Positions 48,241 through 61,352 of a stretch of DNA of 64,000 bases are shown here, piece by piece. The notes under the pieces were generated by a model. That model saw only the letters and a program-made list of their open reading frames with translations, did not search any database and was not told where the DNA came from. The translations under genes were made by a program, and so were the position numbers. The stretch is from Pseudomonas sp. Teo4. Lineage in GTDB: Bacteria; Pseudomonadota; Gammaproteobacteria; Pseudomonadales; Pseudomonadaceae. The stretch spans positions 1,240,001 to 1,304,000 of the forward strand of contig NZ_JAXCIL010000002.1 of assembly GCF_034387475.1 (NCBI RefSeq), in the 5' to 3' direction. Numbering within the stretch: position 1 is the stretch's first letter; each line of letters starts with the position of its first letter.

Positions 48241-48260
48241 GGGCCGCCTTGCGGCCCTTT
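48241..48260 (+). terminator. Rho-independent terminator of the efflux operon
   Basis: GGGCCGC (48241-48247), loop CTT, GCGGCCC (48251-48257), then TTT and a pyrimidine-rich stretch. Confidence 0.75.
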
Positions 48261-48265
48261 CTAAT

Positions 48266-48373
48266 CTGAAACCAAATACTTCAGTTCCAACTCTCTGGCG
48301 AATACTCCTACGACGCCTATCGCTAGCTGCTGTCTTGGCCCGCACGCGCACCAGGAATAACGTCCCCCGAGTC
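48266..48373. repeat. Direct repeat copy A (108 bp)
   Basis: Starts CTGAAACCAAATACTTCAGT and ends near AGGAATAACGTCC; about 80% identical to copy B at 48787-48893, same orientation. Translated on the minus strand both copies keep an open frame with shared residues (AKTAASDR, IRQR, FGFR), but no start or ribosome-binding site is convincing, so I list it as a repeat and not a gene. Confidence 0.8.
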
Positions 48374-48408: not shown

Positions 48409-48693
48409 ATGGCAAACGAACGCTCTACTTCCGTATGGGATGCGTTGGTTGATTCGCCTGAAGAAGCCGAAAACCTTCGGCTACGTTCCAAGCTGATGCG
48501 TGTATTGACCAAGGCCGTGCGGTCTTGGGACCTCCCACAAAAGGAAGCGGCTCGACGGCTGCATGTGACCCAGCCTCGCTTGAGCGAGTTACTGAACGGG
48601 AAAATTGACAAGTTCTCTCTGGATGCACTGGTGAACCTGCTGGCAAATGCAGATTTGGAAGTGGATTTCGTCGTTAAAGAAAGAGCTGCCTGA
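48409..48693 (+). CDS. XRE/HigA-type HTH protein, orphan antitoxin-like
   Basis: Protein of 94 residues with a central HTH (SWDLPQKEAARRLHVTQPRL, SELLNGKIDKFSLDALVNLL), the form typical of antitoxins that pair with RelE/HigB-like toxins. In such pairs the toxin gene normally precedes the antitoxin. Here the 176 bp upstream hold only a terminator and direct repeat copy A, and nothing toxin-like follows. It may be a solitary regulator. AGAGGGG precedes the ATG at 48409. It lies between the two copies of the direct repeat. Confidence 0.83.
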   Translation: MANERSTSVWDALVDSPEEAENLRLRSKLMRVLTKAVRSWDLPQKEAARRLHVTQPRLSELLNGKIDKFSLDALVNLLANADLEVDFVVKERAA

Positions 48694-48786
48694 TAAGTGC
48701 GGTTGATAAGTTACGGGCTGGCCTTGGGGCTGGCCCGTATCATTTCCGCTGGTCTTAGGTTCAAGAGACGTAAGACTTTTCCGAAC

Positions 48787-48893
48787 CTGAAACCAAATGC
48801 TTCAGTTCTGATTCTCTGTCGAATTATCCTACGGCACCTGTCGGAAGCTGCTGTCTTGGCTTGGAAGTGCCCCAGGAATAACGTCCTCGGGTC
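48787..48893. repeat. Direct repeat copy B (107 bp)
   Basis: Diverged copy of 48266-48373 (CTGAAACCAAATGCTTCAGT ... AGGAATAACGTCC). It lies in the 388-bp gap 48694-49081, which also contains a small hairpin (48907-48927) and the structured RNA candidate. Confidence 0.8.
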
Positions 48894-48950
48894 GCCTTGC
48901 AAGGTGATCGGGCGTGAGACACCCGATGGTTACAGGTTGCGCCACTCTAT

Positions 48951-49027
48951 GGTGGTCGTGCGCGGGCAGGCTTCGGCCTGGCCGGGTCTCCTGTACCCCG
49001 GGTCTCACCCCGTGCACGACTGCCACC
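48951..49027 (+). ncRNA. Candidate structured leader RNA (three-way junction)
   Basis: Outer stem P1: GGTGG (48951-48955) with CCACC (49023-49027), a three-base bulge, then TCGTGCGCGGG (48956-48966) with CCCGTGCACGA (49009-49019), one G-U pair. P2: CAGGC-TTCG-GCCTG (48967-48980), a cUUCGg tetraloop. P3: CCGGG (48982-48986) with CCCGG (48997-49001). An upstream CCAC (48942-48945) can alternatively pair with GTGG of P1. It lies 54 bp before a two-gene DUF operon. Either a cis-regulatory leader or an sRNA; no Rfam name comes to mind. Confidence 0.6.
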
Positions 49028-49081
49028 CAAATCCGTGAGACGAGGAGGAAGGCAGACCATTCCCAAGTACAGGAGTCCGCC

Positions 49082-49357
49082 ATGAAAAAGCTCGTCCCCG
49101 ACCCACCTCCCTCATCCCTGCTTCTACTCGATCCCCCCTTGTTCTCACTGCAAGTCCCTCCAAGCGCCGAAGAATGCGACCAGTTGATCAGCGCAATGAC
49201 CCTGACCGTAGAACAGACAACCACCGTCCTGATCGACAGCGGCCCAGGCCTGATTCGCGATGCCATGGGCATGAACCTGCGTCTGCTGTGCCGGATGATC
49301 AACGTCCTGAGCGAGCACACAAGCAACGCCATTCGAACCAGGGAGCAGCAGCGATGA
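49082..49357 (+). CDS. Small DUF6124/DUF3077-like protein
   Basis: Protein of 91 residues: a proline-rich head (MKKLVPDPPPSSLLLLDPP) followed by LFSLQVPPSAEECDQLISAM and a helical region. The form 'LFxVxPxxxxEdAL' plus helices is typical of small Pseudomonas proteins of unknown function found in pairs. AGGAG six bases before ATG 49082 fixes the start. It overlaps the next gene by 4 bp (ATGA) and follows the structured RNA candidate. No function can be given. Confidence 0.75.
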   Translation: MKKLVPDPPPSSLLLLDPPLFSLQVPPSAEECDQLISAMTLTVEQTTTVLIDSGPGLIRDAMGMNLRLLCRMINVLSEHTSNAIRTREQQR

Positions 49358-49602
49358 GCGATGACCCGAAGCTCACTTCAACAGCCGGCGAGGAAACCTT
49401 CGACCTGTTCCGCCTGCAGCCCGATGTGCCTTTCAACCATGCCTTTTCGCAGCTATCCGTGTTGCTCGGCTGCATTCGCCACCTGACCACCGAAGCCGAA
49501 ATGGAAGGCGACCGCGTGGCCGGGAGTGCGGCGCGGATTCTCAGTGAGATGGCCAAGGCATTGATCGATGATATGGAGCGGGGGATGAACAGGGTGCTCT
49601 GA
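49354..49602 (+). CDS. DUF3077-family small protein
   Basis: Protein of 82 residues with LFRLQPDVPFNHAFSQLSVLLGCIRHLT and a C-terminal helix, matching DUF3077 as I know it. Translationally coupled to the preceding gene. Related to it in layout (LFxLQxxxxxxxA), so the pair may have arisen by duplication. Function unknown. It converges on the Fic gene. Confidence 0.78.
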   Translation: MSDDPKLTSTAGEETFDLFRLQPDVPFNHAFSQLSVLLGCIRHLTTEAEMEGDRVAGSAARILSEMAKALIDDMERGMNRVL

Positions 49603-49631
49603 GCGATGTGCAAGCTTGGGCAGGAGTGGAT

Positions 49632-51128
49632 TCACTCCTGCTCGGTTTCCGTTCGCTGAGCCGCAAGCATCTGCTGGGACTTCTGCTCGATGAACTCGAA
49701 CACCTCCTCCGGTACGGAGTACAGATATTGCTTGCGCCTGTTCTTGGAAACGATTCCGTCATTGGTAAGGCACATCATCACCAGGTTGGCCAGATCACTG
49801 CCGCGAACATCGTATCGCTCGTTTACCGCACGGTAGACTGCGTCATAGCAGGCGAGGAAGTCCGCTTCTTTCTGCAGTTCCACCTCAAGGGCGATCTTGG
49901 CCATGTCGAGTGTGAAGGCAACGCAGGGCGTCGCATCCCAGTAGCGATACACTGCTTCGCTTCCCCTGAACTCGAAGCTGTATTGACCGAAGTCGATCCA
50001 CCTGACGTCCCAAAACTCCCGCACTGGTCGTGAAAACGTTTGCAGTGCTTCAAGGTAGCGTAGCTCCTGGCTCTTCATGGCAACCGACATGGGTAGCAGC
50101 AAGCCGTCTTCCAATGCCCCTGCTCGGCAGAGCGCTTGATGGATCAAGAAACGGGACAGGCGACCATTGCCATCCATGAATGGATGAAGCAGCACGAAAC
50201 CAAACGAGATGATGCCTGCCGCTACCAGTGGGTCGACTTGTGTCGGGGCGTCGTTGGCAAAGTGCATCAGGCTTTCCATGAGCTCTCGGCACAGGTCGGG
50301 AGGTGGTGGCAGGAATGTGACTCCGGTAGCCCCGGGCGTACCGTCCGACAGATAGTTTTGCTCGTGCCTGAATGCCGCCGCGAGATCGAAGGGATTGGAG
50401 ACAGTTGCATTCTGTAGGCCTACCAGGTAGTCCTCGCTCAATGGTTGGCGTTGGTGTGCCTGACGAAGCAGTTGAATGAAGCGGCGGGATTTGTCCTCGG
50501 AAGGCGACTCGCGCTCAATGGCGAAAGAGTCCTTCGTTTCATGCAGGTAGGCCCAGTTCAGTGCCCGGTCCATCATGATAGGCGGCAATGCCGCGATGAA
50601 GGCTCGTGCTTTCATGAGGATGTCATGGTCGAGTAGCGCCAGGATCTCAGGCGTGCGCTCGACAGTGGCGCAGTAGGTCAGGTCGCCCAAGCCGTTGAAG
50701 TCGACCCGCCATTTGGCGTTTCGCTCGCCAGGGCGGGTGATATAGCGTTCAGGATCAAAGAGCGGAACATATGGCGTGCGCACGGGTGCATGCTGCTTGA
50801 CTTCCTCCCCAGTGAACGCCTCTCTGAGATAGCACGCCTTTCTGATGTATATGCCGTTGGGGGCTTGTTGATGGGATTGTTCCAACGCTGCGGCTGGGAT
50901 TTGCGGCAAGGCCTGCGCGAGAATCGAGAGGTTGATACCCTCGTGCTTGAGGGCAAACAGTACGTGGCCAAGCAGATCATCCGACGCTGGGGTGATACTT
51001 GCGGGTACGGCCAGTGTATGTCCTATCGGTTCAAGCCTGGTTACTGGCTTTATGATTGCAGGTCTGCGCAGGGGCACTGCTGTGAGGCTGAGCTTCTGGA
51101 TGAGAAATGAATAACCAACGGCGTCCAT
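49632..51128 (-). CDS. Fic-domain protein (probable AMP transferase)
   Basis: Protein of 498 residues with an intact Fic motif HPFMDGNGRLSR (315-326), which catalyses transfer of AMP or other nucleotides to protein hydroxyls. An N-terminal helix contains SFAIER (201-206), which fits the class II self-inhibitory motif [S/T]xxxE[G/N] except for Arg at the last place. A C-terminal winged-helix-like region (DVRGSDLANLVMMCLTND) resembles DNA-binding tails of similar Fic proteins. The ATG at 51128 has AGGA ten bases upstream. No separate antitoxin is adjacent. Target unknown. Confidence 0.87.
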   Translation of the reverse strand: MDAVGYSFLIQKLSLTAVPLRRPAIIKPVTRLEPIGHTLAVPASITPASDDLLGHVLFALKHEGINLSILAQALPQIPAAALEQSHQQAPNGIYIRKACYLREAFTGEEVKQHAPVRTPYVPLFDPERYITRPGERNAKWRVDFNGLGDLTYCATVERTPEILALLDHDILMKARAFIAALPPIMMDRALNWAYLHETKDSFAIERESPSEDKSRRFIQLLRQAHQRQPLSEDYLVGLQNATVSNPFDLAAAFRHEQNYLSDGTPGATGVTFLPPPPDLCRELMESLMHFANDAPTQVDPLVAAGIISFGFVLLHPFMDGNGRLSRFLIHQALCRAGALEDGLLLPMSVAMKSQELRYLEALQTFSRPVREFWDVRWIDFGQYSFEFRGSEAVYRYWDATPCVAFTLDMAKIALEVELQKEADFLACYDAVYRAVNERYDVRGSDLANLVMMCLTNDGIVSKNRRKQYLYSVPEEVFEFIEQKSQQMLAAQRTETEQE

Positions 51129-61200: not shown

Positions 61201-61352
61201 CGATTTACCCCGTCAAAACCACTAGACGTCGAAAAAAGCAAGTGTTACATTCGGCCTCGCACTGCTTCTCCAGTGCCCTCTGCACGCCGTCGCCGAAGCA
61301 TCCCTAATTCGAATCAGTACGCGATCTTGTCGCCATCTAGCGGCGCGGCCTC

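Follow-up and report, generated by a model that had tools for sequence, protein, structure and literature searches.

C4 antisense RNAs originate from phages. In the immI operon of phages P1 and P7 (c4-icd-ant), C4 has a predicted length of 77 nt, carries the loops a′ and b′, lies in the order a1-C4-a2-b2, and is followed about 50 nt downstream by the start of a small first ORF and then by another gene; in P1, C4 acts in trans. The excerpts consulted record C4 in Proteobacteria as well as in phages (Weinberg 2010, PMC2864571), and in those of a study of A. baumannii, the Group 1 sRNAs comprise 21 C4-like RNAs that are expressed and apparently trimmed at a GGW site, with many chromosomal copies in a single genome and a variable a′ loop (PMC5320573). 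Two related leaders appear in excerpts of a further paper (PMC4825925): the Salmonella Gifsy-1 isrK-orf45-anrP operon, in which alternative folds of one operon leader are combined with a trans RNA, IsrK, and a small ORF is coupled to an antirepressor gene, and the CI RNA of phage P4, an antisense RNA lying between two complementary target copies, seqA and seqC, on the same transcript.

Here, we analyzed a 64,000-nt stretch of the genome of Pseudomonas sp. Teo4 (hereafter, the window), which contains a C4 RNA upstream of two small ORFs. The locus resembles the P1/P7 system in its fold, predicted 77-nt length, loops, order of elements, ORF spacing, and presence of a further gene behind a small first ORF, but the Pseudomonas C4s are chromosomal and occur in many copies per genome, and the cargo behind them is ORF1-DUF3077 at the window and most often DUF6124 elsewhere, instead of icd-ant. 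The multiplicity of chromosomal copies and the variable a′ loop are shared with the A. baumannii RNAs, for which the excerpted text assigns no targets (PMC5320573), whereas most of the Pseudomonas RNAs have a cis target and a protein family behind them. Unlike the window RNA as we interpret it, IsrK activates its operon in trans and the P4 CI RNA acts on transcription termination (both from excerpts of PMC4825925); the window gave no isrK match up to an E-value of 1. In the open-access library searched, which covers few subscription journals, we found no literature linking C4 to DUF6124 or DUF3077 genes and no mention of DUF6124, and DUF3077 appeared in one paper, as a mutated P. putida gene (excerpt of PMC9630843).

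A C4 RNA and its target words in the window

The first-pass annotation of the window had described positions 48951–49027 as a 77-nt RNA with an outer stem, a CAGGC-UUCG-GCCUG hairpin, and a CCGGG/CCCGG hairpin, and had assigned it to no named family. The described fold is present: folded alone, the segment reached −47.8 kcal/mol (z = −3.7), an energy matched by none of 200 shuffles, and CCGGGTCTC is duplicated as claimed, at 48982–48990 and 48998–49006. However, comparison with Rfam supplied a name, RF01695, the C4 antisense RNA of phages P1/P7 (69.1 bits, E-value 2.4e−11, cut-off 45; Table 1), and this match rules out an unnamed RNA family. The Rfam scan of the window gave two matches, the second being Pseudomon-Rho RNA (RF01720) at 61250–61349 on the forward strand (111.7 bits). 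Phage P1, used as a positive control, scored 68.8 bits, with matches by script of 8 nt for b′ and 6 nt for a′, and had a 73-aa ORF at +47 behind C4, which we take to be icd. Covariation, the test that the annotation had named, was evaluated in an alignment of 17 C4 sequences (13 from the same genome and 4 from window-type relatives) and was restricted to stem P1 and hairpin 1, because the alignment slips by one column at hairpin 2. Over these 22 pairs, 96.3% of positions were paired, 14 pairs had changed on both sides, and there were 55 double-change cells against 18 in shuffles, none of 500 shuffles being as good; pairing fell to 30–45% once the partners were slid by 1–3 columns. The GGT site and the length of the segment fit a predicted RNase P-processed C4, both features being taken from excerpts of PMC5320573. 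The segment belongs to an already named RNA family, here in a chromosomal, amplified, and individually addressed form.

Table 1. Features of the C4 operon in the window (position 1 is the first nucleotide of the stretch)
Feature	Position	Strand	Evidence or remark
Conserved leader and putative promoter region of the C4 operon	48779..48886	+	81% direct repeat of 48258–48365
Weak match to c4-a1b1 (RF03163), the family of target copies preceding C4	48878..48929	+	19.2 bits
a1 (GTGAGAC), loop of hairpin 48907–48927	48914..48920	+	complement of a′
b1 (TACAGG)	48931..48936	+	6-nt complement of b′
CCAC, competing for the outer-stem 5′ strand of C4	48942..48945	+	minimum-energy fold of 48878–49090
C4 antisense RNA (RF01695)	48945..49030	+	Rfam score; covariation of stem P1 and hairpin 1
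Predicted mature C4 form	48951..49027	+	5′ end placed by the GGW site described in excerpts of PMC5320573
b′ (CTCCTGTAC), loop of hairpin 2	48988..48996	+	
a′ (GTCTCAC), following hairpin 2 and preceding the P1 3′ strand	49002..49008	+	
a2 target word (GTGAGAC)	49035..49041	+	complement of a′
b2 target word (GTACAGGAG), holds the Shine-Dalgarno AGGAG of ORF1	49067..49075	+	complement of b′
ORF1 (91 aa; MKKLVPDPP...), first gene targeted, predicted to form a helical hairpin	49082..49357	+	
ORF2 (82 aa, DUF3077), its start overlapping the ORF1 stop codon in ATGA	49354..49602	+	
Intrinsic-terminator-like hairpin after ORF2	49616..49645	+	consensus match only

The C4 segment is complementary in two parts to the region that follows it, at the places where C4 targets lie. 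The a′ word is an exact 7-nt complement to both a2 and a1, a match reached by 41 of 5,000 shuffled a′ words, and b′ (CTCCTGTAC) forms 9 exact pairs with b2 (GTACAGGAG) across the Shine-Dalgarno sequence of ORF1, which only 2 of 5,000 shuffled loops achieved. Across the 6.5-Mb genome, an exact pattern holding both target words was found a single time, at the window locus. Complementarity of b′ to the ribosome-binding site of the next gene, present at the window, was not found in three of seven relatives, and part of the Shine-Dalgarno sequence (49072–49075) is already paired when the target region is folded alone.

We consider it very probable that the locus is a chromosomal switch of the P1 immI type, in which a C4 RNA cut out of the operon leader represses translation of ORF1 and ORF2 through a′ and b′. 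C4 would be made as part of its operon's leader transcript, from which RNase P probably cuts out a 77-nt RNA starting at G48951. The freed C4 would pair in trans with the mRNA of the same operon, a′ with a2 and b′ with b2; by analogy with phage P1, the b′/b2 pairing over the Shine-Dalgarno sequence would block translation of ORF1, and the DUF3077 gene, ORF2, would be silenced through its coupling to ORF1. In the uncut leader, a1 and b1, helped by CCAC, would sequester a′, b′, and the 5′ strand of the stem; the probable role of these upstream copies is to slow the formation of C4 or, as a decoy, to set the threshold for repression. Processing, repression, and coupling are thus all modeled on phage P1.

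The small proteins and their neighboring genes

The first-pass annotation had placed two translationally coupled small DUF genes 54 bp past the RNA. The first ATG, at 49082, is indeed 54 nt past 49027, the two genes overlap by ATGA, and ORF2 is a DUF3077 protein (Pfam, 58.6 bits, cut-off 21), but ORF1 matched no Pfam family, and DUF6124 is therefore unsupported for it. Twenty proteins of the ORF1 type were found, itself counted. Relatives of ORF1 are encoded at eight loci, of which L147 is distant (29% identity), and a C4 accompanies seven of them, the eighth (L146) being cut by a contig end. In seven sequences of each, with silent sites saturated in several pairs, dN/dS was at most 0.57 in all ORF1 pairs and at most 0.24 in all ORF2 pairs, indicating that both genes are under purifying selection. 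Structure models of ORF1 (pLDDT 82.6) and ORF2 (pLDDT 91.5) both end in two long helices. Neither model matched a solved PDB fold at an E-value ≤0.001, and DUF3077 matched no PDB sequence at an E-value ≤1. Profile comparison related ORF1 to DUF3077 with 86% probability, resting partly on a few extended N-termini, while comparisons of DUF6124 with DUF3077 and with ORF1 gave no usable match. As to the role of the small proteins, an antirepressor-like or prophage-related one is our guess.

Upstream of C4 lies an XRE gene (HTH_37, 48409–48693), in front of which, at 48258–48365, the C4 leader is repeated over 108 nt (81%). This gene was rejected as a regular partner of C4, since of 110 loci only the window's own had an XRE gene of this kind within 1.5 kb of its C4. 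Genes of the same type also stand beside the relatives L144 and L145, where they follow a Gp49/HigB-like toxin gene (PF05973); the window has no such neighbor, and its XRE gene therefore looks like an orphan antitoxin. Downstream, on the reverse strand, a Fic-domain gene (49632–51128) matched the PADLOC candidate defense model PDC-S24 (2.4e−174). The site of this gene may be variable, because L144, by eye, has the next (FTR1-like) gene without an intervening Fic gene.

The orphan HigA-like gene and the Fic gene, together with a small ORF under an antisense RNA and the ability of P1 Icd to block cell division (excerpt of PMC8201110), speak for a type I-like antitoxin-toxin locus, in which C4 silences a growth-inhibiting small protein for locus stability or abortive infection. 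However, no defense model matched ORF1 or ORF2 at an E-value ≤0.01, and C4 shares both strand and transcript with its target, unlike type I antitoxins; we therefore regard this possibility as rather doubtful.

The leader and its alternative folds

The hairpin that had been noted upstream, at 48907–48927, is present, and its loop is the a1 target copy. The proposed CCAC competitor (48942–48945) likewise pairs with 48952–48955 when the whole leader is folded to its energy minimum, as far as energies can tell. In this fold of 48878–49090 (−92.6 kcal/mol), a1 and b1 occupy a′ and b′, respectively, and CCAC takes up the outer stem's 5′ strand; forcing the intact C4 fold on the same sequence costs 3.3 kcal/mol. 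The energies thus support the two-state leader that the annotation had thought possible at the window locus, and do so less clearly at other loci. Among the relatives, the leaders of L140–L145 favor the same alternative by 1.1–7.6 kcal/mol, and energy folding of the L147 leader did not yield it. A leader-end hairpin of 5–6 pairs occurs in seven of eight window-type loci (CCAC/GTGG at the window; CCGC/GCGG in L140, L141, L143, and L145). Because the whole leader favors a fold without C4, C4 must either fold at an earlier stage of transcription or be cut free; the leader energies take no account of pseudoknots or timing.

Further matches were found in the upstream region. The c4-a1b1 match at the window (RF03163, E-value 0.053) lies below the gathering score of 46.7; among 12 sampled C4 loci, 11 matched at an E-value ≤0.1 and 5 attained the gathering score. 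The isrK family (RF01394) matched 4 of 12 sampled Pseudomonas C4 leaders (L028, L053, L064, and L013), one of them above the cut-off, and these matches overlap the a1b1 leader of the C4 modules, a link between Gifsy-1 isrK and C4 leaders. A stretch similar to the conserved leader region of Table 1 also occurs in L140–L145 and L147. No sigma-70 consensus was found in this region, and a sigma-70 promoter by consensus was rejected.

A leader of this kind could also work in cis only, as a two-state leader or riboswitch in which a1/b1, CCAC, and C4 refold within one transcript and no free antisense RNA arises. The energetic preference at the window and in L140–L145 speaks for this, as do the isrK matches on C4 leaders and the use of alternative leader folds at the Salmonella IsrK locus, combined there with a trans RNA (excerpt of PMC4825925). 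Against it, the leader-end hairpin was found in 6 of 13 loci of the same genome and 1 of 55 loci of a second, C4-rich Pseudomonas genome (G049), and only about half of the loci pair at least 8 C4 nucleotides with the upstream leader (7 of 13 and 26 of 55, respectively). Furthermore, own leaders were barely better than foreign ones (−0.7 vs −0.1 and −2.0 vs −0.7 kcal/mol, computed for leader and C4 only), and the fixed places of a2 and b2 suit an antisense RNA, as in P1. A purely cis-acting leader is thus unlikely.

Address words and the spread of C4 across Pseudomonas

The impression that a similar RNA precedes small DUF genes in other Pseudomonas was borne out. Of 59 Pseudomonas genomes, our own among them, 54 had C4 at an E-value ≤0.001, and 53 had it above the cut-off. 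The genus set gave 999 matches (median 14, maximum 54; ten or more in 37 genomes), counts that are lower bounds because stricter filters were used. The genome of Pseudomonas sp. Teo4 has 13 C4 loci, all above the cut-off, and G049 has 55 (52 above the cut-off) at 48 sites separated by more than 20 kb. In a sample of the class, C4 occurred in 19 of 275 other genomes (median 1, maximum 10), and in a sample of the order, in 22 of 145 genomes, including our own genome and one other Pseudomonas genome. Within the order, an AT-rich genus (GC 0.36–0.37 in two loci) had one to three copies in 11 of 29 genomes, 10 of them above the cut-off, and at two of its loci the next gene was KilA-N-like by eye. 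In the literature found in the open-access library, beyond which most subscription journals lie, such large chromosomal sets of C4 across Pseudomonas are undescribed.

For further analysis, we took 110 loci: all 13 of the own genome, all 55 of G049 (3 below the Rfam cut-off), and 42 more from among the top-scoring places listed by the genus search, with L029 excluded for its short length. A match of a′ of at least 6 nt was present in 106 of the 110 loci (vs 8.2%), and one of b′ of at least 7 nt in 82 (vs 4.4%). Of 93 loci, 89 had their own 7-nt a-word again upstream; among 1,796 control pairings, 106 did. The a2 word lies a median of 4.5 nt past C4 and the start codon a median of 51 nt past it (100 Pseudomonas loci). 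When both words were required to match over at least 6 nt, 13 of 13 cognate pairs in the own genome qualified, against 1 of 156 non-cognate pairs. In G049, the corresponding counts were 41 of 55 and 11 of 2,970, 14 cognate pairs falling short of 6 nt on a or b; at 7 nt or more on both words, they were 29 of 55 and 0 of 2,970. By summed length, the own target was the unique best in 11 of 13 and 43 of 55 loci. By the duplex energy of b′ alone, it ranked first in only 8 of 13 and 10 of 55, and the address therefore resides in both words jointly. Outside the genus, both words matched over at least 7 nt in 33 of 49 loci (leaving out the short L149 and L168 and the same-genus L148 and L167), against 3 of 2,352 non-cognate pairs. 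These comparisons of sequence words indicate that most Pseudomonas C4s carry an address of their own, matched to the neighboring gene.

The relatives of the window locus suggest how such addresses change. Across the seven with a C4, a′, a1, and a2 agreed at 7 nt in every case, even though a′ takes three forms; in the four loci whose a′ differs from that of the window, both targets, a1 and a2, had changed along with it. The b′ and b2 words matched over 7–9 nt in four relatives and had no match in three, L140, L141, and L143, where they shared 4 nt although a′ matched. Re-coding is possibly in progress at these three loci, with a′/a1/a2 matched and b′/b2 no longer so.

Such agreement also bears on whether C4 regulates other genes or incoming phages in trans, the local match being an ancestral remnant. 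Trans regulation of this kind was proposed for the Acinetobacter C4-like sRNAs (excerpt of PMC5320573), C4 acts in trans in P1, and a cell rich in C4s might encounter phages with matching targets. In contrast, the local two-word match is private (no non-cognate pair at 7 + 7 nt in G049), the exact target pair was found once in the genome, and a1 and a2 keep agreeing with a′ in all seven relatives, which makes this explanation quite improbable. Finally, non-functional prophage debris can be virtually dismissed: C4 stems from phages, and outside the genus the class sample has 1–10 copies, several beside antirepressor-like genes by eye, but covariation, the private target match, ORF conservation, the 48 separate places of the G049 copies, unlike one prophage, and the way a1 and a2 keep matching a′ when the words change largely contradict it.

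Behind C4, a callable ORF1 of at least 45 aa was present in 95 of the 110 loci, and 15 had none in the expected place. Among the 95 modules, at an E-value ≤0.001, laxer than the Pfam cut-offs, and with L003 counted twice, DUF6124 was the commonest cargo (52), followed by Bro-N (7) and DUF3077 (6), the rest having no family. The icd/ant antirepressor cargo of P1 immI is absent from the window locus; the Bro-N cargo is antirepressor-like, and one scanned example of it resembles phage antirepressors. DUF3077 was encoded in 45 of the 59 genus genomes, none of which lacked a C4 match at an E-value ≤0.001 (in G037, the sole C4 match scores below the cut-off), and in the own genome, it lies 348–595 nt past a C4 among the seven matches listed, of nine. 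It was absent from the phages and viral contigs searched. DUF6124 was found in one phage record, in none of the plasmids searched, and in at least 79 viral-contig loci among the best 80 of 93 matched stretches; in this same set, C4 lay within 150 nt upstream of DUF6124 in 63 of the 76 viral loci with context. Two of three inspected viral modules adjoin tail or lysis genes. In a P. fluorescens phage record (EU982300; L195/L194), a C4-DUF6124 module lies near a prtR repressor gene, and a near-identical prtR stands beside the C4 module at L106; prtR was rejected as a regular neighbor, having been found at L106 alone among the 110 loci.

If the immI-type switch operates at the window as proposed, Pseudomonas may, we suggest tentatively, hold a large array of parallel, non-interfering C4 switches that derive from phage immunity operons and were diversified by duplication and loop re-coding. 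Each would silence one small helical protein (DUF6124, DUF3077, or Bro-N), and these proteins might be host-kept antirepressor-like or phage-responsive effectors, released when a phage that enters the cell or awakens in it titrates the matching C4. The analysis offers a candidate regulator for two uncharacterized protein families, DUF6124 and DUF3077, and a route to the targets of chromosomal C4-like RNAs, for which the excerpts of the Acinetobacter study give none (PMC5320573). It also provides a large natural collection, within a single cell, of antisense RNAs matched to their targets, which would be useful for learning how such pairs stay separate and how they are re-coded after duplication.
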